Of a stretch of 15,912 nt of DNA, positions 14 to 15,912 are shown one piece after another. The position numbers were made by a program, and so were the translations under genes. Source of the DNA: Enteropsectra breve (Eukaryota; Microsporidia); contig JALPMN010000551.1 of the NCBI GenBank assembly GCA_024243835.1, positions 1,908 to 17,819 of the forward strand, in the 5' to 3' direction. The notes under the pieces are model-generated. The model was given only the letters and a program-made list of their open reading frames with translations, was not told the origin of the DNA and did no database searches. Each line of letters opens with the position of its first letter. The stretch's first letter is position 1.

Positions 14-40
14 GTAATAAGTATAGACCGGAAAATAATC
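14..40. repeat. Left TSD (14-21) and TIR (22-40) of the hAT element
   Basis: The 8-bp target-site duplication GTAATAAG lies directly before the terminal inverted repeat that starts TATAGACCGG. The partner lies at 3796-3822. Confidence 0.93.
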
Positions 41-60
41 TGCAATTTTCTAAAAAAACA

Positions 61-128
61 CCCGATTAATCGGGTCCATAATCGGAAAAAACTGCATTAT
101 TTTTTACATAAAATTTGAAAATAATCGG
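61..128. repeat. Subterminal CCGATTA/TAATCGG heptamers, left end of hAT
   Basis: The heptamer CCGATTA or its complement TAATCGG occurs at 62-68, 67-73, 79-85 and 122-128. The first two form the perfect palindrome CCCGATTAATCGGG (61-74). The same heptamer recurs at 3776-3782, 3784-3790 and 3794-3800 near the right end. hAT transposases are known to bind short subterminal repeats, so these are candidate binding sites (inference). Confidence 0.6.
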
Positions 129-561
129 CAAAATTTTTCAAAATAAAAACAAGTTTAAAAGACCAATTTGACTAAATTCTTTATTGTAGTATAAAATTAG
201 AAGTTTTTTAAAGTTTTCTATCATTAAATTTAATCTTTTATCATTAAGCATCATTTTATAGTTGCTAAAACCTCTTTCAACTGATACTGTGGTGAGAGGA
301 ATATATCTAAATATATGTTCCGAAGTAACTGATTTCAACATATCAAATTCTACGAAAAAATCAAGATCTGGATTACCCAACAAAATGCCTTCAAAACGGT
401 CGGTATATCCGTTCCCTGCGATAACTATATTTTTTGCTTCTTTCAGTATAGCTATTTGCTCAGTAGTACTTAAATTATCGTATTCAAGCTTCTTTACTAG
501 TGCTGGAAATCTTTTATAGAAAAAAACTTTCTTGAGCTGATCCTCGATTTCCTGTAAAGTT

Positions 562-596
562 AGAATTGTCATGCGACATTCTGAATAAGGCATTTT
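562..596. repeat. Left TSD (562-566) and 30-bp TIR (567-596) of the Ginger-like element
   Basis: AGAAT is followed by a TIR beginning TGTCATGCG and ending GGCATTTT. Relative to the right copy it differs at TIR positions 5, 10 and 19. Confidence 0.88.
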
Positions 597-913
597 CGCC
601 CATTGTTTGAAAATTTTGTGAATTTTTCTTAACAAAATAAAAATGCTCGGTCGCCATCTTGATTATGGAGGTTTAAAGATTTTATTAAGGAAAAATAAAA
701 AATTTACAAAGCCAAAACTGACTCTTTGGCCCTTATGATTAAGCCAAAAAATAAGTAAAAAATCTAGCAAGAGAAAAACTAAAAAATGGCAATAAAAAAT
801 TCAAATAAAAATAAAAAAAATATTTTGATAGCAACTGTTTAAAAAAGTGTTATATCTTTAAAAATGATATAAAATTTTCAAAACAAGTTGTCCCAAATGC
901 CTAGGTCGAAAAA
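597..913. other. Non-coding 5' region of the Ginger-like element
   Basis: This AT-rich stretch lies between the left TIR and the first ATG (914) of the integrase gene. I see no ORF, hairpin or repeat of note in it. A promoter is presumably here, but no motif can be claimed. Confidence 0.5.
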
Positions 914-2077
914 ATGAATTCGGCTGAGGAGAAAGCAGAAATAGTGGCATATTGCCTGTATTAAATCGTCCCCGATAGCAAAAAAACGGGTCAAAATATA
1001 ATTTTATGCGATTTGCTGCTGATTTACAGTGGAGAATGAAATTCTATACCTGAGAAAATAGGACAAAAAAATCCGGGTATTTTGCGGTTTTGAGGGTGCG
1101 GATAAACTCCTCTTCATCAAAACTGCTCATGGTTTAAGCTATATTGGCTCTAGAAAGATGGAGGAGTTTATTTTTGAAAACTCGTCTGGGATTTGCCGAA
1201 CTGAGATCCGTGATTTCGTTTCGGCATGTCCACAGTGCCAGGTTTCAACACCGTATACCACACTCCCACAAGTTAGGCCCATCATTGAAAATGCTAAGCT
1301 TGACAGGTTTATAGCTGATTCGATTGATATGCGTAAGTACGCAGATCAAAATGATGGATTTAAGTGGATTTTGAATATAGTAGACTCATATTTAAAGTTT
1401 GCCTGGAGTGTGGCCCTCAAAGAAAAGTCAGCAAGTGCTTACTTAGAAGCATTTAAAGCCATCTTTTTAATTGAAGGCACGCCTAAAATTTACACTGTGA
1501 CAACGGCACAGAGTTTAAAAATGCCGCTCTAAATTAAGTTTGTTCTGACATGAAAATATGCAGAATTTATGGCCGCGCGAGGCATCCACAGAGCCAGATT
1601 GAATGATTCAATCAGACCCTTAAAAGAAGGCTTTCGAAGGCAACTGACTCTGAAAAAAGATGGATTGATCTTCACTAGCAAACAGTCTATGATTATAATG
1701 TTTCTTCTCATAGGGCTAATGGAAAATCGCCTTTTATGCATTTCAGAGGGGTTTCAGGAATGCGAGCTGCAATACATGTTGAAGATTTCGAACAGCCTAT
1801 TTTGGATGAAAATGATCCAATTACACTGCATAGGGCCATGTATATTGAGGAGCTTACACGAAATTCCAACTATAATCGAAAAAATATCATAGTTGGCTCG
1901 GTTGTTTTGCTAAAAAAAGAGTTCGATAACAACCCTAAAATCAAAAAGAATCAGCTTGACTCTTTTTACGAAGCTGAAAGATACACGGTTACAGAGATCA
2001 ATGCAAGAATTGTAGCCATTAAATTCGGCGATTCTCAAAAGAGAATTGACATATCGAGACTCAAAAAACTTGATTAA
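914..2077 (+). pseudogene. Integrase-type transposase pseudogene, copy A (H2C2 finger and rve core)
   Basis: The likely start is ATG 914 (MNSAEEKAEIVAYCLY), with a stop at 962. From about 1083 the frame reads CGFEGADKLLFIKTAHGLSYIG then SACPQCQ: an H2C2 integrase finger whose second His is Tyr. The catalytic core follows: FIADSIDMRKY (first D), NIVDSYLKFAW, then a one-base frameshift near 1490 that restores HCDNGTEFKN (second D), and ARHPQSQIE (catalytic E) followed by TGA where Arg (CGA) is expected. The C-terminal part has YDYNVSSHRANGKSPF, VGSVVLLKKEFDNN and LDSFYEAERYTV, ending at 2077. Damage is at least one early stop, one clear frameshift and three later stops (TAA, TGA, TAG). Related proteins are Ty3-type, Ginger and KRBA2-like integrases. 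It is the only gene between the TIRs, so it is probably the element's transposase. Confidence 0.85.
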
Positions 2078-2716
2078 AATTCTCTATTCTTATTTATTTT
2101 ATTTTGTTGCTTTTGAAAAATTTTGTGTATATTGCTAAATTTGTAATGGCTTTTAAACCTGTGCAAGAGCTATTGTACTCTTAGGCACTAAATAGAAGCC
2201 TATGCGGTATTTGACTCCTTGATGCATTGAAGAAATACATTAATACGCAAATAGGCTACAAGTGCCAAACTTTCGCATATAAATTTATTTTCAGTATGAA
2301 CTCTTAATACATTAACACTAGTCAGCTTTGTCTTTATCATTTGCATAAAATTGTACTATAAATATGCAAAACTCTCTTAATCAACACTTTATGATTTAGT
2401 TTTAAGGCTAAGGAAAATACAAAAATTAACTAATGGTTTGAATAAATTTAGCATTTGTTTATTAAGACATTTCTTTCTTTTTTAAATGTTTTTAGCCGAT
2501 GATAAATGTTTTATAGTTATTTGATTGTAAATATGCGTTTTCTCGAAAAAAATGATAATTATATATAATTTTTACAATATTTTTAACTTCATCTGGCTGA
2601 TGGTTAGCACCACTAAATTGATGCATTGCTAATTTTCATGTAATGAGTGTTCAACCTTCGGGATTAACTTTTAATGAAAAAATAACTTCAAAAAGTTATC
2701 GCAAAACCGCAAAGAA
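2078..2716. other. Non-coding 3' region of the Ginger-like element
   Basis: About 640 bases with no coding sequence on either strand. The only structure I see is the imperfect hairpin at 2184-2266. Its length suggests either a long 3' trailer or loss of a second gene. Confidence 0.5.
2184..2266. repeat. Imperfect inverted repeat (hairpin) in the Ginger-like 3' region
   Basis: The arm at 2184-2211 begins GGCACTAAATAGAAGCCTAT. It pairs with 2242-2266, whose complement begins GGCACTTGTAGCCTAT, with a few gaps. The 30-nt loop is AT-rich. It could be a small inserted MITE or an RNA hairpin. Confidence 0.45.
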
Positions 2717-2751
2717 AAAATGCCTTAATCAGAATGGCGCACGACAAGAAT
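2717..2751. repeat. Right TIR (2717-2746) and TSD (2747-2751) of the Ginger-like element
   Basis: On the plus strand the element ends GCGCACGACA, followed by AGAAT, identical to 562-566. Confidence 0.88.
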
Positions 2752-3774
2752 TGACTTTATTTCTGCAAGACCAGAGGTAATAGAGGACAAGTTACTGATA
2801 AATCTAGAAATATCCGCAAAGTTATCTAAAATATGGATTGCACACTTCAGCCACGTTCCCCATCTCATAATAATAGGGAATTTTGGGAATTTTTTGCCGA
2901 AAATATCAAAGTATAAATCTTGATTGACCCGGGTTTTCACAAGTACTCTTTTTATAAAAAGAGACATTGTATTTATTTTGTCACAATCATTTCTCACAGT
3001 TTCACAGAAGTTGTGAAACACGTGGCAAATGCCCGTAACATGTTTCATGGTCGGGATCAACTCTTTAAGCATTCTACCTGCTTTTAAAGCATATTTTGCC
3101 CCATCGCTAAGAAGAAGTTTAATGTTAACAAATTTGCTAATATCGCTATCAAACAAGTCATTTAAAAGCTTTAGACTTTGCCTGTTAATATTCTCTGAAT
3201 TGGTGGCCACCAGCTCCATTACCTTTCATAGTGAGGTCTTCTTTCTTTCATCCTTAGAACATTGTCAAATGAAAATATTCAAAATATACCTACCTCAAGC
3301 ATCGGTAGTTTCATCAAAGCATAGAAATAGTGGCTTTTTGCAGTAAAAAACTTTTATTTTTATCAGTTCTTCATCATAAAGATCTTCTAAAATATTTTTT
3401 CCAGAAAAGCTTTTATCTTTAATTTTTCTTTGCATGCCAACTTCAAGAAAATTCCTAAAATGCTCGTGATTGATTTTGTGGATTGGAATATCCACCTTTA
3501 TAAACGCCTTAAGTAAATTATGATGAAATCAATCACTAGTACCTGAAAATTTATCCTTGTTTGTATTTGCATTTCTGCTCGTTATTTAAGTGATTAGCCG
3601 AATTTAAATGATTTTTCAATGTCTTGACTCCTTCTGCAGGGTTAATTTCTTAACTTCATCGCAAAAGTCACATGATAATGTGTCATTGACAATTGTAAAG
3701 CAAGGGAAATTTGCATGAATTCTTTTAATGCTTTATACTCAACCAGCTTTTTCATTTTATAATGATAAAAATTT

Positions 3775-3800
3775 GCCGATTAATAATCGGCACCCGATTA
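3775..3800. repeat. Subterminal heptamers and palindrome, right end of hAT
   Basis: GCCGATTAATAATCGGC (3775-3791) is a perfect inverted repeat around one central base. It is followed by CCCGATTA. It mirrors the heptamers at 61-128. Confidence 0.6.
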
Positions 3801-3822
3801 TTTTTCGGTCTCTAGTAATAAG
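3796..3822. repeat. Right TIR (3796-3814) and TSD (3815-3822) of the hAT element
   Basis: On the plus strand the element ends CGGTCTCTA, followed directly by GTAATAAG, identical to 14-21. The terminus matches the left end at 17 of 19 positions when reverse-complemented. Confidence 0.93.
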
Positions 3823-4725
3823 ATTAAAAAAAAGAAATAACTGCTATTCTATGTCAAAATCAATAAAAATAAATACATCAGAGGAAAAGAGCAGAAAATC
3901 GAATACTGCTATACTTCAAGAAACCTCCAAGGCTTTAAAGAAAATGAACTTTGCAGCTTAATCAGGCAGGCTAGCTAAAAACTTTGATTACGAAGAAGCA
4001 CGCTATTTTTGAATAAAAATGGTGTTAAATATGTGTTTTTTTGCGCTTTTGAACTTAAAGCAAAGAAGTTATTCATAGAGGCTGCTCACGGTTAGTCTCA
4101 TATCGACCAGGCATAAACTGAGGCGTTTGTTTTCGAGAGGGCGTGCGGTATTTCGCGTGCAAAAATACGCGAGTATATTAAAAGCTGTAGGAATTACCAG
4201 TTGGTTACAATACCTGCGGCAGTATTACCAAACCGCTCGATTATTGAAAATAAGATAATGGACCGTTTTATCGCAGACTCTATTGATATGAGGGAATACG
4301 AAGCACAGAATGACGGCCATGAATGGATCCATAGCATTATTGATGTATATAGCAAATTCGTTTGGAGTTTTAAAATGTACACTAAGTCAAGCGAAGACTA
4401 TGTAGAGGTTTCTGAAAGCCTATTTTTGACTGAAGAATATCCAGAAATCCTCCACTGCGATAACGGCAGTGAATTCAAAAAAAGTATTGTAGACCTTTGC
4501 GACTCATTAAACATATGCCGTATATATGGAAGGGTGAAATATCCATAAGGCCAAGGGCGGGTGGAGCGATTCAATGGCACCCGAAAAAAGCGTTTAAGAA
4601 AATCACTTGCAGAGTCAACTAATGGATTGATATCCATAAAAGAACAATTTTTTAGTATAACATCCACAGGCATCGAGCTATCAGTAAAACACCATTTAAG
4701 CATCTTCGTAGTTTTTTCTGGTATA

Positions 4726-4771
4726 TAGTATTTTTCACAGTACTTCGTCAATTTAACATTCAATTTCGTCA
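4726..4771. repeat. Left TIR of mariner-like element 1
   Basis: It is preceded by TA (4724-4725) and includes TATTTTTCAC, ACTTCGTCAA and ATTCAATTTCGTCA (4758-4771). It pairs with 6308-6353. Confidence 0.85.
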
Positions 4772-4862
4772 AAAATAAAAAAGCCAATTTTCATGCAAGA
4801 AAGATTATTGTTAAAACTATAAAAATTAAACAGCAAATGCATATAAAAGTTAAGTTATTAAT

Positions 4863-5866
4863 TCAACAATCCAGAATAGTTATTCCCTTGATACTATCCG
4901 GCAAAAATCGCAGCATATACCTAAAGTAGCCGGCACAATCTTCATCAGAAATTAGTCTTCACCATTATCAATTAAATTAAGTAGGCCCTCTTCACTAACT
5001 AGATTGCTAGCCCAATATACTGCTTCCATTTCGAGAAAATATTCTCATTGGATTTAAAAAGGGCGAATATGGCTGAAGTTATGAAATAATATATCCTGCA
5101 GAAGAAGTTTCTTCCCTGACTTTGGTCCTTTTGTGAGAAGGAACATTATCCACAATGCTAACTGCGTTCTGAACCTGCTCTGTATTTAGCTGTGCAATGA
5201 GGCCACGAATAAAATCTAGGTAGAAATCGTATTAAATGCTGTAGTTTGAGCCCTATATTTGGTAATCCATTCTACGACATGGCACAGCAGACTGAAATAT
5301 TGTGTGATCTTATTGCTGTAACTGTATGACAGGCTCGTTGACCTCTTAGTGATCGGTAGCCACGAGTCCGCATTGATTGATTGAAGCCTACTTCATCAAC
5401 GAAATAAAAAAGCTAGGCGTGTCAGGGCATGTATGCAGAATATTAAAATCAAGTCCATATGTTTTGCGCATTTCTAGGGTCCCTGGGCAGTTGCGGTGTT
5501 CTGGAATTAAACTTGTCCGTTTGAAAGAAAAATTGAAAGTTCCAATGGTCCTGTTGATCGTAGCAATCGAAACAGTGATACTATATATGTCGGCACTCTT
5601 TCAGCCAATTCTTTCAGAGTCAATCTAAAATTTTCATCAATCCATTGGCGGATAGAAGCTCGAACTTCGTCAGTAATCTTTTTTATCCTGATTCTGCCCC
5701 GAATCATGGGAGCAACGCGTCCTGTCTTATTGTAGACACTAAGCACAGTACTCACAGTTGTACGCCTAATCCCCATAATGCGTGCTATTTGAGCAGCAGA
5801 ATGCCCATGCAAATATAGGCTTATAATGTGCTGCCGCTCTTCGTTGCTTAATGTCCTATTTACCAT
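4863..5866 (-). pseudogene. IS630/mariner-type (DDE_3) transposase pseudogene of element 1
   Basis: The start is ATG 5866-5864 (MVNRTLSNEERQHIISLYLH), the same start as in the copy at 15803. An N-terminal helix-turn-helix region follows (GHSAAQIARIMGIRRTTVSTV), then IRQWIDENFRLTLKEL. Catalytic blocks are spread over several frames: FVDEVGFNQSMRTRGYRSLR (first D, about 5393-5340), SIVDNVPSHKR (second D, about 5161-5130), LQPYSPFLNP (about 5085-5050) and, after a frameshift, NENIFSKWKQYIG with the E. The C-terminal region ends about 4863. At least two frameshifts and internal stops (for example after CCAMS) make it non-functional. It is related to, but clearly different from, the transposase at 9170-10145. 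Confidence 0.82.
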
Positions 5867-6286
5867 GGTGATATAATAAAAGTTTTTAAGATAATTGGCA
5901 GGAAAATAAAAATATTGCTTTTGCATTAATATTGTCATAGCTGTCACGGTTAACATAAAAAATACACTACAAATGTAAAAATTTGTAAAAAGTTTTACTG
6001 ATGTTTTTAACGGATGATGAACATGAAATAAATAAATTGTTTAAAACCGACAAATATCATATACAATACCATAAAATTTTTATTTGAGTTGATATTGTTA
6101 GAATTTATGCATTTATATTTAGGTTTATGAATAATTTAAAACCAATCCTATTTTTTTCTTAGAACCTAAATAAGGTTCCCGTGGCCTGTTAAGAGATTCC
6201 ACGCTACTCGAACACTATTCTTCTAAATTATGGTGCCAAGTAAACGTGCTGTCGAACTTTGAAGTTTTTTGCAAACTTTTTATTTT
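5867..6286. other. Non-coding 5' leader of mariner-like element 1
   Basis: No gene is seen. The region matches, in reverse complement, the leader of the copy at 15366-15802, including GTGGCCTGTTAAG and the block around AGAACCTAAATAAGGTTCCC (6161-6180), itself a near-palindrome. Confidence 0.7.
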
Positions 6287-6353
6287 TGACGCAATTGAAA
6301 GTTCATGTGACGAAATTGAATGCTAACTTGACTAAGTAGAGTGAAAAATGCTT
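6287..6353. repeat. Right TIR (6308-6353) and subterminal repeat of mariner-like element 1
   Basis: On the minus strand it reads GCATTTTTCACTCTACTTAG, then ATTCAATTTCGTCA (6321-6308), then TTTCAATTGCGTCA (6300-6287). TA follows at 6354-6355. Confidence 0.85.
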
Positions 6354-6591
6354 TATGAGAAACAAAATTTATACTAAACTAAGAAGAGGTAGAGTTTCTT
6401 GCTGATGATCTTACACGTGAGCTCTGCATCAAATATTTGAAAAGTTAGTTGGTGAACCGTTGACCACACCGCTGGATTTTGTTATTGGTGCGAAAGTACT
6501 ATTGAAAAAAGATATTGACAATAATTCCGGAACCAGAATAAGACCTCTTACACTTCCATTTTATGAAAAGGAATGTACAATCATTGATATA

Positions 6592-6617
6592 CAGTAAAAA
6601 CCGGTTATAGTGAACTT
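6592..6617. repeat. Left TIR of the 540-bp Tigger-like element
   Basis: It begins CAGTAAAAACCGG after TA and pairs with 7106-7131 at 24 of 26 positions. Confidence 0.87.
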
Positions 6618-6647
6618 CATTGGGACCGCAACATTTTAGAAAAAATT

Positions 6648-7077
6648 TTATATATGAATAAAATATTCAGTTGTTGTTCTTTGACGTACTTTTCTTTCAT
6701 AATAAATCTTTTTAGGTTTTACATTAATAATGGAGATGGAATTCAGGATATTATCATCATTGATTTTTCCGCATAAAAATGCTTTTAACACCTCTAATGC
6801 TTTAATAGCACTTGTAGCAACAACCTCATTCTCATCGATATCATTTTCTTTATCATAGCTAGATATAGCGCAACTTTCTTCATTAAAAAATCCATCTGTT
6901 TGAACTAAATGAAGTATTTAATATTTCCAATTTATTCTTTTTAATGGCTGAGATGGCAGCTGGGGTGAGAATATAGTGCTTAACAAGCTCAGCTTGCTTA
7001 GTTCCACTGTCCAATGCCTCAATAACATCTATTTTCATTTTGACATTAAGAACATTTCGTTTTTGACTGTTACTCAT
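6648..7077 (-). pseudogene. Tigger-like transposase remnant: CENP-B-type HTH joined to the C-terminal tail
   Basis: From ATG 7077 the frame reads MSNSQKRNVLNVKMKIDVIE, then ALDSGTKQAELVKHY, TPAAISAIKKNK and LEIL. This is the CENP-B/pogo N-terminal helix-turn-helix (about 50 residues), and it runs to a stop at 6883. In another frame the minus strand continues with ENDIDENEVVATSAIKALEV, LKAFLCG and NSISIINV, ending at TAA 6648, which resembles the acidic tail and end of Tigger proteins. The roughly 300-residue DNA-binding/DDE centre is absent. The upstream in-frame ATG at 7113 lies within the TIR-proximal leader, so 7077 is the likelier start. Whether the HTH half is still translated cannot be told. 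Confidence 0.75.
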
Positions 7078-7105
7078 GTTAGACTTTTTAACAAATTTTT
7101 TTAAA

Positions 7106-7131
7106 AAGTTCACTATAATCGGGTTTTACTG
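7106..7131. repeat. Right TIR of the 540-bp Tigger-like element
   Basis: On the plus strand it ends CGGGTTTTACTG, followed by TA (7132-7133). Confidence 0.87.
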
Positions 7132-7139
7132 TAATAGGG

Positions 7140-7563
7140 TAGCAGGGGCAGATTTCCGGTTTAAATTTTCAGGGTTAAAAATGTTTTTGATGCGGCGAGT
7201 AGAATTTTACAGGCGTATTTCAAATAACGAAAATAGTTTAGAATATGCAGCAGAACTGGGACTGCTTAGTTTTGTTCGTCCTCACTGCTATACAACTGGT
7301 TGTAATGGGCTTATGAACCTTGAAACGGGGAAAAGTAGGCACTCTATCGATGCAAGATGGAGATGCAACAAGCGTGCTTGCCGAAAAACCAAAAGCTTTT
7401 TTGCCAATACCATCTTTCACGATTCTAAGATGTCTATTTCCTCGATGCTTGAGGCAATTTATTTTTATTGTGAATTAGGCAGTATTGAGCATAAAGCATC
7501 ACAGCAAGGCGTTACTAAGAAAACTTTGGGCCTACTGTATGAAAAAATTGGCCGCATCATAAT
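7140..7563 (+). pseudogene. Merlin (ISXO2/IS1595-like) transposase N-terminal fragment, copy A
   Basis: The open frame shows SNNENSLEYAAELGLLSFV, then CYTTGC and, after a short insert, RWRCNKRACRKTKSFFA, a C-x4-C ... C-x4-C zinc ribbon (about 7290-7395). It continues with MSISSMLEAIYFYCELGSI and GVTKKTLGLLYEKIG, the helix-turn-helix-like stretch before the catalytic domain. This matches the N-terminal half of Merlin transposases. The catalytic domain (EIDESKF and downstream) is missing because homology ends where the Tigger element begins at 7566. The true N-terminus is uncertain; the boundary with the tail of integrase copy B lies between about 7134 and 7190. Confidence 0.72.
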
Positions 7564-7565
7564 TA

Positions 7566-7639
7566 CCGGTTTTTCTCGAAACCAAGACCACCCAAAAATT
7601 AGACCAGTGTTCTTATTCTTGGGTGGTCTTATTTTCGAG
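7566..7639. repeat. Left end of Tigger element with internal inverted repeat
   Basis: The TIR starts CCGGTTTTT. Within it CTCGAAACCAAGACCACCC (7575-7593) pairs at 17 of 19 positions with the complement of 7621-7639. Confidence 0.75.
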
Positions 7640-7665
7640 TAAAAAAAATAAATTTTTGTGAACCC

Positions 7666-8967
7666 ATGGCAAGAAAATCATATACCGTTAAAGAAAAACT
7701 TTTAGCAATACGAAGATTAAGTGAAGAACACGGCAATATTTCCAAGGTTTCTAGGGAACTTAGAATAACAAATAAAATGCGAAGAGAATGGAGAAATTCA
7801 GAAGAAAAGCATTTAAGCTCGAATTCAAAACATACTACAAGAAGCATCGGCTCGGGGAGAACGACATTATATCGGGATGTAAAGGCCAAGTTGCTATCTT
7901 GGGTACACGAAGAAAGAAGCACGCAGAAAAGAATAGTAACTTTCGATATATTATGCAAAGAAGCCCTTCATTTTGCTGAAGAGTTTAATATTACTTTTTT
8001 TGAAGCGAGCAATAATTGGATTGTTTTATTTATGAAAAGAGACTGCCTATCTTCACGAAAAATAACAAGTGTCGGGCAGGAGGATCATCGCCCTCTAAGT
8101 CTTATTAAAGCAACAGTTATGGATTATTTTGAAACATTATCACATCAGCTGACAAACGTTGATCAGTCAAATAGCATAATGAATATGGATAAAACACCTG
8201 TATATGTCGATATGATGTCGACTAAGACTGTTTCTTTTAAAGGAGAAAAAAATACAGAAGCTCATGGTACTGGGGATAACAAAACTCATCTTACCGTTGT
8301 TCTTTCAATTACCGCACAGGCCAAATATTAAAAACTTTGGTAATTTTAAAGGGCTTTAAAAAGGCACCAAAATGCAATATTCCACGAAATTTAATTGTTA
8401 CAACAAGTAAATCAAACTATGAATAAAGAAATCATGCAATTTTACATAAGAGCCTGCCTTAATATGCATGGCCTATTTGAATGCAGAGACGCAAGGATAT
8501 TACTGCTTGATTCGTTTGTTTTACATAAAGATGATGCTGTCAAAGAATCATTAGTTAGAAAAAGTATTGTGCCCGTGTATATTCCCCCTAAAACTACTTC
8601 TTTTTTGCAGCCGCTTGATATATTAATTAATTCTATATTCAAAGCATCAATGAAACGATATTGGGCTGAATGGGCAAGCGCAAGCCCTCATGAATCAACT
8701 AAATCAGGCTACTAAAAAAGCCTTCATGGAAGTGCATTCTTAATTTTATTTCCAAAAGCATTGAAAGCATTTCTCAGGATGCATGCCAAAGAAGCTTTAG
8801 AATGGCAGGTTTATCGAATTTGGCAATAAACCTTTATGTTGAAAACATAAGTGAGAAACTTTCATTTATACTGCAATCTAAATCAGATTTCAATTCGACT
8901 ACTGTATTAAGTGATATTGACGAAGAAAGTGACAAACATTATTCAGACGAAATTTTATCAAGTTGCT
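7666..8967 (+). pseudogene. pogo/Tigger-type (DDE_1) transposase pseudogene
   Basis: The start is ATG 7666 (MARKSYTVKEKLLAIRRLSE), a psq-like helix-turn-helix (residues about 1-45). A Tc5-type DNA-binding region follows (LLSWVHEERSTQKRIVTFDI, then FFEASNNWIVLFMKR, about residues 70-130). The DDE_1 core shows NMDKTPVYVDM (first D), ILLLDSFVLH (second D) and TSFLQPLDILINSIFKASMK (third D), a DD35D pattern. Frameshifts occur near 8322 (GQILKTLVILKGFKKAPK resumes in another frame), near 8418 (before MNKEIMQFYIRACLN) and near 8690-8745. The C-terminal part (SISQDACQRSFRMAGLS, then DEILSSCL) is cut at TA 8968-8969 by mariner-2. The last codons follow at 10633 and end at a TAA three codons on. Confidence 0.85.
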
Positions 8968-11216: not shown

Positions 11217-11291
11217 TTTTCACAGAGGTCAGCCCAGCACACCAGGTGAATTGAAAACTCCCCTGGTGTGCTGGCTCGACCTCTGTGAAAA
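11217..11291. repeat. GC-rich hairpin, 30-bp arms and 15-nt loop
   Basis: The arm at 11217-11246 (TTTTCACAGAGGTC, three bases, CCAGCACACCAGG) pairs with 11262-11291. Only the central triplet differs clearly (AGC against GAG). The arms are far richer in G and C than the surrounding sequence. It could be a minimal MITE, a foldback element or the stem of a structured RNA. It is not a tRNA. Confidence 0.8.
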
Positions 11292-14399: not shown

Positions 14400-14640
14400 T
14401 GCCAAAGTAGGGCAGTGCTACAACAAAACCAACCTTTATTTCAGAGATGCACATGGAAAGAGTGTAAGTATCGAGAAAGCGTTCTTAATGATACACCTTT
14501 TTATCATAGTCGCTTACGCGAGCTGATGTATTATAGGTAATATGGCTGTAGAGTGAAGGCGTGAAAAAGAAAACAATCGCCAAAATCGTAGAAGTAAGTC
14601 GTCAAGCAGTATCTCTTGTGATCAAAAAGCGGCTCAAGTA
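14385..14640 (+). pseudogene. Merlin transposase N-terminal fragment, copy C
   Basis: The plus strand reads LKCSRCQSRAVLQQNQPLFQ then RCTWKECKYRESVLNDTPFY, a C-x2-C ... C-x4-C zinc ribbon like that of the other two Merlin copies. HSRLRELMYYR, a TAA and YGCRVKA follow. After a frameshift near 14560, KKKTIAKIVEVSRQAVSLVI and KKRLK form the HTH-like stretch. The catalytic domain is absent. The fragment abuts the truncated end of the Tc1 pseudogene, and a perfect inverted repeat lies just downstream. Confidence 0.72.
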
Positions 14641-14648
14641 TTTAAAAC

Positions 14649-14703
14649 TCGCCAGAATCGATTTTTAAAAAAAACAAAATTTTCAAAAAATCGATTCTGG
14701 CGA
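14649..14703. repeat. Perfect 18-bp inverted repeat
   Basis: TCGCCAGAATCGATTTTT (14649-14666) is exactly repeated in inverted orientation at 14686-14703, separated by a 19-nt A-rich spacer. It lies at the point where Merlin homology stops. Confidence 0.85.
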
Positions 14704-15363
14704 TTATTAAATGTCGCCGGCTGATAACCGTTCAGTCCCAGTAGTTCCGCTAATAGAATAAATAACAATGTCATCTACACTAAAAAGAAACTACAGTCAC
14801 TTAATTGTTCGCGACAACTTAAGGTTCATAAATTTTTTCTCTTTATATGCTTTTTTTTGGCGGGAAATTAATTAAAAATATATTAAAAATATATTAAAAA
14901 TCTTAAAAAGTCTTAAATTTTACATAGTAAGGCTTTAAAATACACTATCATTTTGAATATTCTACTTAAACTATGTTTTATAAATTTTAAGTTGAACCAT
15001 GGCTAATTCAATGACAATCAATTTATTTATTTGATTTTAATATAATGGTAACTTCAAAATGGCGGGAAAATCATTTGAAGTTATAAAAACATGTACAGTA
15101 AAATATTGAGAATAGTAAAAATTTTTATAATGTGCGATATAAAGATGATTGCTCCTAAAAACTTTATTATTTTTGTATTCGATTTTTTTTTTAAATATTA
15201 AATTCAAGCCCTCAAATGAGTTGTGAAATAAAGTAAAACAAGCATGTAAATACTAATAGGCTTAGATCATATCATTTTTGCTAGTTTTACTGTTAGCTTA
15301 TATAAATTTTTCTTGACACTGTGTAAGTTCGCATTAGCAAAATTTTTTAAAAATTTTAAGACT
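14704..15363. other. AT-rich stretch with no gene
   Basis: No coding sequence is recognised on either strand. It holds an 11-bp tandem repeat (14871-14903) and two copies of GGCGGGAAA (about 14859 and 15061). A Tc1-like terminus starting CAGTCACTTAATTG near 14794 was considered but has no partner. Confidence 0.5.
14871..14903. repeat. Short tandem repeat, unit ATTAAAAATAT x3
   Basis: There are two exact 11-bp units followed by a third with one changed base (ATTAAAAATCT). Confidence 0.8.
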
Positions 15364-15365
15364 TA

Positions 15366-15503
15366 CAGCATTTTTCACGCTACTTCGTCAAGTTAACATT
15401 CAATTTCGTCAAAAATAAATTTTTTTTGAAATTCTCACTTTTTTGTCATTCAATTTCGTCAAGTTAACATTCAATTTCATCACATGAACTTTCAATTGCG
15501 TCA
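15366..15503. repeat. TIR and subterminal repeats of mariner-like element 3
   Basis: The motif ATTCAATTTCGTCA occurs at 15398-15411 and 15448-15461. Variants follow at 15469-15482 (ATTCAATTTCATCA) and 15490-15503 (TTTCAATTGCGTCA), and a partial CTTCGTCA lies at 15383-15390. These are candidate transposase-binding sites. The copy at 6287-6353 has fewer units. Confidence 0.75.
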
Positions 15504-15802
15504 AAAATAAAAAGTTTGCTAAAAAGTTCAAAATTCGACATCACGTTTACTTGGCAGCATAATTTAAAAAACTAGTGTTCGAGAAGCGTGGAATCCCTTA
15601 ACAGGCCACGGGAACCTTATTTAGGTTCTAAGAAAAAATTTAGGATTGGTTTTAAATTATTCATAAACCTAAATATAAATGCATATATTCTAACAATATT
15701 AACTCAAATAAAAATCTTATGTTATTGTTTATGATATTAATCCGAAAAGAAATATTTTTATTTTCCCGCCAAATTATCTTAAAATTTTTTTAATATATAA
15801 CC
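15504..15802. other. Non-coding leader of mariner-like element 3
   Basis: It is homologous to 5867-6286 in reverse complement, including AACAGGCCAC, GGAACCTTATTTAGGTTC and TTTTCCCGCC shortly before the gene. No gene is present. Confidence 0.7.
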
Positions 15803-15912
15803 ATGGTAAATAGAACTTTAAGCAACGAAGAACGGCGGCATATTATAAGCTTATATTTACACGGGCAATCTGCTGCTCAAATAGCACGTATTATGGAGAT
15901 TAGGCGCACAAC
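15803..15912 (+). CDS. IS630/mariner-type transposase, N-terminal part (cut by window end)
   Basis: ATG 15803 opens MVNRTLSNEERRHIISLYLH, then GQSAAQIARIMEIRRT, the HTH of the family. Thirty-six codons are visible without a stop. It differs from the same segment of element 1 by only a few residues (Q to R, H to Q, G to E). Whether the full gene is intact cannot be judged here. Confidence 0.85.
   Translation, partial: MVNRTLSNEERRHIISLYLHGQSAAQIARIMEIRRT

Follow-up and report, generated by a model that had tools for sequence, protein, structure and literature searches.

The window analysed here, a 15,912-nt stretch of an Enteropsectra breve contig, harbors a degenerate Ginger-type DNA transposon whose transposase is a retroviral-type integrase; we put the probability of this assignment at about 0.93. 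E. breve is a microsporidian that infects worms. Its reading as a DNA transposon rests on its ends, the flanking duplication and its gene content, on an empty site that restores a reading frame, and on other, related loci whose ends resemble its own. An integrase-type, Ginger-like transposon in a microsporidian had been proposed in a sequence-only reading of this DNA, and our analysis supports that proposal with a reservation about the Ginger subgroup. Integrase genes of microsporidia can thus belong to a DNA transposon, as this element shows.

The window unit has inverted ends, a target duplication and a single gene

The unit spans positions 567-2746 of the window (2,180 bp) and is flanked by exact 5-bp copies of AGAAT (Table 1). 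Read inward from both ends, the terminal inverted repeats (TIRs) agree at 27 of their first 30 bases, beginning with TGTCA on the left and TGTCG on the right; an inverted-repeat search delimited arms of 31 nt. This was the top pair in the window when an exact 5-bp duplication was demanded, the runner-up having 22 matches, and the best end pairs in 12 dinucleotide shuffles of the window reached only 19-21. Both the 27/30 TIRs with a TGTC(A/G) start and the exact AGAAT on either side, as claimed from the sequence alone, are therefore confirmed.

Table 1. Features of the transposon, its carrier element and the second integrase copy, in window coordinates.
Feature	Position	Strand	Evidence
Target site duplication AGAAT, left copy	562-566		Sequence and end-pair scan
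Left TIR, TGTCATGCGACATTCTGAATAAGGCATTTT	567-596	+	27/30 against right end
Integrase/transposase gene, decayed (copy A)	897-2077	+	tblastn with P0003/P0004, ORFs; start codon by reading
Right TIR, inward reading, TGTCGTGCGCCATTCTGATTAAGGCATTTT	2717-2746	-	Inverted-repeat and end-pair scans
Target site duplication AGAAT, right copy	2747-2751		End-pair scan
hAT-like element carrying the insertion	22-3814	-	Weighted TIR scan, score 23.5 (without shuffle control); paralogue in C114
Copy B integrase, N-terminal and core part, with stops	3851-4715	+	tblastn, rve, tree; start codon by reading
Copy B integrase, C-terminal piece	6466-6612	+	tblastn; inverted repeats

ORFs and tblastn agree with the earlier statement that an integrase is the only gene of the 2.18-kb unit. 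Four pieces of 154-197 residues, including 1002-1529 and 1490-2074, are 47-55% identical to E. breve P0003 and P0004. The gene is broken by stops and by a frame change near position 1490, and Pfam gave no match at E 0.001 for its three separate ORFs. There is no reverse transcriptase ORF inside the unit, and the ends are inverted, direct LTRs being absent. This copy (copy A) is dead; relatives with open frames are present in the E. breve genome, among them C93 (ENBRE01_0316).

The unit is inserted in a hAT-like element, which has imperfect inverted ends (TATAGACCGG and TAGAGACCG) and an 8-bp duplication, GTAATAAG, at 14-21 and 3815-3822. When the flanks of the unit are joined over a single AGAAT, the minus strand reads in frame through AEIKSILTLQEIEDQL. 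A paralogue in contig C114, which carries a stop of its own, is 52% identical to the joined peptide and aligns without a gap over query residues 1-229, spanning the insertion point. Of the earlier claim of an interrupted hAT frame, the in-phase rejoining thus stands on both the frame and the paralogue, while Pfam did not bear out the hAT identity: the label was not confirmed on the two separate pieces, and the joined peptide gave only one weak, unrelated match (E 0.023). We call the carrier hAT-like because of its 8-bp duplication and a resemblance to hAT sequences.

Related integrase loci and a second complete unit

Genome counts in this study cover 3.96 Mb of the E. breve assembly, against a published genome size of about 6.0 Mb (PMC10393165). 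A microsporidian SSU rRNA model matches this assembly along the entire model with 882 bits; since the model also finds matches in 9 of 14 control genomes, this match by itself is no proof of the host. A search with the integrase of copy B, the second copy in the window, returned 16 rows that were grouped into 14 loci, and C126 and C154 were added via their ends, giving 16 related integrase loci, several of them fragmentary. The total drops to 15 should C94 and C154 be two parts of a single element; the C94 left and C154 right ends have 23 terminal bases in common, with ATTAT outside both. C126 carries a C-terminal piece of 126 residues, which shows 94% identity to P0003 across 67 residues and 40% identity to P0004; the piece at C154, 74 residues long, shares 36% identity with the C93 protein. 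The integrase ORF of C36 and E. breve ENBRE01_1935 are identical across 92% of the ORF.

Correctly oriented ends, 11 in total, were found at 9 of the 16 loci: both ends at the window unit and C69, and others at C94, C154, C126, C36, C19, C93 and C144 minus. The remaining seven (copy B, C144 plus, two in C75, C137, C146 and C150) have no recognizable end. Nine of the 11 listed ends start with TGTNR, the misfits being C69 left (TGTTC) and C144 (TGCCG). Their flanks, for example AGAAT, ATTAT, ATCAT and AATAA, are AT-rich and do not match RTATAY at these few sites. The C93 end was identified by visual inspection, and a stretch of N occupies its opposite side. The C144 end is located upstream of an LTR retrotransposon (L056:3289-7000 and L079:68-246; LTR match 99.4% over 179 bp), itself just before the integrase start; we assign this end to the integrase because the retrotransposon, as read from the sequence, appears nested between them. 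Repeats occur inside the ends of C36, C19, C144 and C69 and may represent an integrase-binding array.

Several motif matches were not accepted as ends. The match at C144:7480 was taken as a subterminal repeat, the end being placed at 7589, that at C144:14912 sits within integrase coding sequence, and those in C90 and C119 fall in host-like ORFs. Single TGTYGT ends were also seen at C25 (L070:3035), C65 (L071:78), C135 (L077:196) and C108 (L078:383), with no partner or integrase nearby in the surrounding stretch examined; these are perhaps remnants. Separately, an 18-bp repeat array with FYKYFA in its translation lies within a membrane-protein-like ORF of C36 (L054, about 440-800).

Complete units number two, that of the window and that of C69. 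In the C69 unit (1881-7918), the two ends agree at 25 of 30 bases and the 5-bp duplication is ATTAT; its weighted score of 35.8 compares with at most 26.1 in eight shuffles. With a 4-bp duplication instead, the best pair scored 33.7 and lay 15 bp inside, produced by repeats within these ends. The unit contains an integrase ORF with rve and H2C2 domains over the Pfam cut-off and a C-terminal integrase piece (29% identical over 48 residues to the C93 protein), the two being divided by a DDE_3 transposase ORF; no reverse transcriptase was found among the ORFs listed in it. Its ends have only TGTY in common with the window motif. The duplication is 5 bp in both complete units (AGAAT and ATTAT), which answers the earlier call to collect target duplications of 4-5 bp. 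A first TIR scan, covering 12 loci, picked up both the window unit and the hAT-like element, with C69 as the fourth row at its own locus; the weighted scan missed C69, whose right end lies beyond the 2.5-kb range. Neither scan gave a complete unit at any other locus.

The element works like Ginger but fits neither Ginger1 nor Ginger2 fully

Ginger1 and Ginger2 were defined by Bao et al., 2010 (PMC2836005), and Ginger ends are described there as TGTNR. As in the Ginger superfamily, the integrase is the sole gene between TIRs, without reverse transcriptase or LTRs, in the window unit and, bar the nested DDE_3 gene, in C69. Compared by published descriptions of Ginger, the element works like Ginger and matches neither group fully.

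The protein features were read from relatives of the broken window gene. Among five E. breve integrases, rve was over the Pfam cut-off in all five and Integrase_H2C2 in three, with the other two below it. At E 0.01, none of the five, of which three are truncated C-terminally, showed an OTU, Ulp1 or chromo domain. Residues D144, D205 and E241 of the C93 protein are aligned opposite the residues that are catalytic in foamy-virus integrase. The family profile matches the foamy-virus and Ty3 integrases and extends into the Ty3 C-terminal domain, where no G or P stands opposite the Ty3 GPF, and a 10-row alignment has no GPY/F column. Upstream of the zinc finger, a YPYY-like pattern, which we made ourselves from the wording of PMC2836005 and not from its figure, was present in 27 of 56 proteins (4 of 56 when shuffled), compared with 0 of 65 KRBA2-like proteins (8 of 65 when shuffled) and 1 of 14 pol-linked ORFs. 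By eye, its four positions fit 10, 8, 7 and 9 rows of the 10-row alignment. IMG/VR yielded 14 distant matches (21-43% identity), which play no part in the argument.

That the element is a plain, standard member of Ginger2/TDD is a serious possibility, which we hold to be somewhat doubtful. TDD-4 and TDD-5 of Dictyostelium have the same TGTNR ends, 4- or 5-bp duplications and AT-rich targets, and also a single integrase-like transposase with H2C2 and DDE and, as described, no GPY/F (PMC2836005), as read here from the relatives. However, the Ginger2/TDD TIRs of 45-297 bp in table 2 of Bao et al. are longer than the ~30 bp found here, and the Ginger2/TDD target is RTATAY, whereas the E. breve targets, at few sites, are AT-rich without matching it. 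Moreover, Ginger2/TDD is described without the YPYY motif (PMC2836005), while about half of the family carries the YPYY-like pattern in our self-made version. The KRBA2-like proteins also form a separate clade that includes Littorina saxatilis and Branchiostoma, hosts of described Ginger2; we infer that the KRBA2-like proteins of these two hosts are Ginger2.

The element is not Ginger1 by the features tested. Ginger1 has the same TGTNR ends, a Gypsy-like integrase and a YPYY-like region upstream of the zinc finger, the last being matched by our self-made pattern in part of the family. In contrast, its duplication is a 4-bp CCGG/CCGT rather than the 5-bp AGAAT and ATTAT, its GPY/F motif has no counterpart residues in the E. 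breve family profile, its C-terminal OTU or Ulp1 domain is missing from the five E. breve integrases (three C-terminally cut), and its TIRs are about 40-270 bp (PMC2836005). From Ginger2 the element departs in TIR length and target. The nearest named relatives outside microsporidia are the KRBA2-like proteins of Branchiostoma, Littorina, Haliotis, Rotaria and Rhizophagus, in which the integrase is likewise outside a pol ORF, as judged by length; they differ by forming their own clade and by lacking the YPYY-like pattern. Polinton/Maverick elements are large, with 6-bp duplications and polymerase B among other genes, in contrast to 2.18 kb, 5 bp and one gene (PMC10045372, PMC5753468), and IS3EU/GingerRoot has TA..TA ends and a 6-bp duplication instead of TG..CA and 5 bp (PMC10045372).

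A more novel reading, at slightly less than even odds, is that an old third group of Ginger elements, distinct from Ginger1 and Ginger2, exists in Microsporidia and some of their relatives. Its members would have subterminal repeats, short ends starting TGTCR and AT-rich duplications of 5 bp, and a good part of the microsporidian integrase genes annotated as "Pol polyproteins" would be its transposases.

Trees separate the element integrases from those of reverse transcriptase-bearing ORFs in the same genome

Integrase trees of 54 and 48 rows were built from sequences hand-picked from several hundred, and both contain long branches. The phylogeny proposed in the sequence-only reading was realized in part: the KRBA2-like proteins and the reverse transcriptase-linked integrases of the same genome were included and both fell apart from the element integrases, while the rows hold no authenticated Ginger1 or TDD-4. 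In the 54-row tree, 14 pol-linked E. breve integrases split from the element integrases with support of 100/100, and 11 of these 14 split off likewise in the 48-row tree (100/99). An RT-like motif is present in the same ORF piece in 13 of the 14 (not in C101), RVT_1 was found in all six pol-linked pieces scanned, and RNase H is also in the ORF. In the 48-row tree, the seven KRBA2-like rows form a clade (100/100) and window copy A groups with other E. breve rows, seven in all (97/97). The best 48-row tree does not unite the 26 microsporidian-type rows, because chromo-domain integrases fall among them; forcing their monophyly was not rejected (p-AU 0.349).

An origin of this integrase gene as a Ty3/gypsy LTR retrotransposon fragment, the inverted repeats being incidental, is very improbable. 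The match of the family profile to foamy-virus and Ty3 integrases, the many integrase-bearing pol ORFs of the E. breve genome, and the names Gag-Pol or Pro-Pol given to relatives in other microsporidia would fit such an origin. But an LTR retrotransposon has direct LTRs and a reverse transcriptase, whereas the window unit has inverted ends with a duplication outside them, an in-frame empty site and no reverse transcriptase ORF, and C69 is a second unit with inverted ends and a duplication. In the Ty3/gypsy-type pol ORFs of the same genome, a homologous integrase domain is joined to RVT_1 and RNase H in one ORF (direct LTRs were checked in one element, that of C144), and both trees place the chosen pol-linked integrases, 14 and 11 respectively, apart. 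The linkage to reverse transcriptase and LTRs that had been named as a possible refutation is not seen as an ORF in either complete unit, and the alternative to a retrotransposon-fragment label is upheld by the inverted ends, the duplication, the missing reverse transcriptase ORF and the separation in the trees.

End motifs across the genome

With up to three mismatches, the 30-bp window TIR matched the genome at the two window ends only, so this exact family is single-copy in the 3.96 Mb searched. The search of the assembly proposed earlier thus recovered the window pair and no exact-family copy elsewhere, while similar ends were recovered at other integrases. Shorter patterns gave more matches than their reversed-pattern controls: 7 versus 1 for a 12-mer, 13 versus 6 for a 14-mer with one mismatch, 16 versus 2 for an 18-mer and 27 versus 10 for a 20-mer. 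The controls show that the looser patterns, the 20-mer and the 14-mer, also match by chance. The 18-mer, 20-mer and 14-mer patterns were drawn from known ends, and therefore their counts are not independent tests. Four of the six matches to the exact terminal 14-mer are at integrase loci. Of the 27 20-mer matches, eight sit where an end is expected at an integrase locus, including a subterminal repeat in C36; the nested retrotransposon accounts for two at C144, one is in integrase coding sequence and 16 are elsewhere.

That the TIRs belong to an unrelated transposase, the integrase gene having been captured or being there by chance, is just as improbable as the LTR-fragment origin: the 30-bp TIR is found solely at the window and integrase-free ends exist at C25, C65, C135 and C108, but ends of the window motif adjoin related integrases at six other loci (C94, C154, C126, C36, C19 and C144), contrary to the refutation named in the sequence-only reading, and TGTNR ends are those of Ginger (PMC2836005).

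Putative transposition and distribution in microsporidia

The anatomy of this Ginger-type element fits DNA transposition by an integrase. Its single product would be a retroviral-type integrase with an H2C2 zinc finger, a DD35E core and a C-terminal domain, which would bind the TGTCR ends and probably the subterminal repeats. The element would move as DNA without an RNA intermediate: the integrase would join the ends to an AT-rich target with a 5-bp stagger, by a presumed order of strand cuts, and repair of the stagger would leave the AGAAT duplication. Excision of Ginger1 is not understood according to Bao et al. (PMC2836005).

Relatives named Pro-Pol, Pol, Tf2 or Gag-Pol polyprotein occur in Dictyocoela muelleri, Nosema granulosis and Cucumispora dikerogammari, and many unnamed relatives lie on short contigs; outside E. 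breve the relatives were compared at the protein level. A survey of microsporidian transposable elements described gypsy-type LTR elements, Merlin and mariner, some LTR elements being identified from the integrase domain alone (PMC4202319). There was no report of Ginger in microsporidia among the literature matches listed, which cover few subscription papers and not Repbase. The word is absent from the main text of five papers on microsporidian genomes or transposable elements (PMC4202319, PMC10393165, PMC7313128, PMC13174016 and PMC12558613), and in passages of PMC6635534 and of a Merlin survey (PMC8101967) it is an author name. The E. breve element extends the host range of integrase-type transposons to microsporidia, which bears on counts of microsporidian transposable elements. 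It also adds a lineage to the question of Bao et al. whether Ginger-like transposons predate the integrases of LTR retrotransposons or arose later (PMC2836005).

Other features of the window

The hAT-like element lies directly 5′ of copy B, the older integrase copy, giving at least three nested layers. Copy B has tblastn pieces within 3886-4715 and an rve match in 4117-4548, and it is a row in both trees. A mariner-like sequence at 5757-6348 apparently interrupts it, and we infer that this insertion splits the C-terminal piece from the remainder. An inverted mariner-like copy is located at the right edge of the window (15442-15912), with arms 88-93% complementary. Short hairpins at 7570-7644, 11217-11291 and 14640-14712, whose 33-37-nt arms are 84-88% complementary and enclose loops of 1-7 nt, are possibly fold-back or MITE-like.
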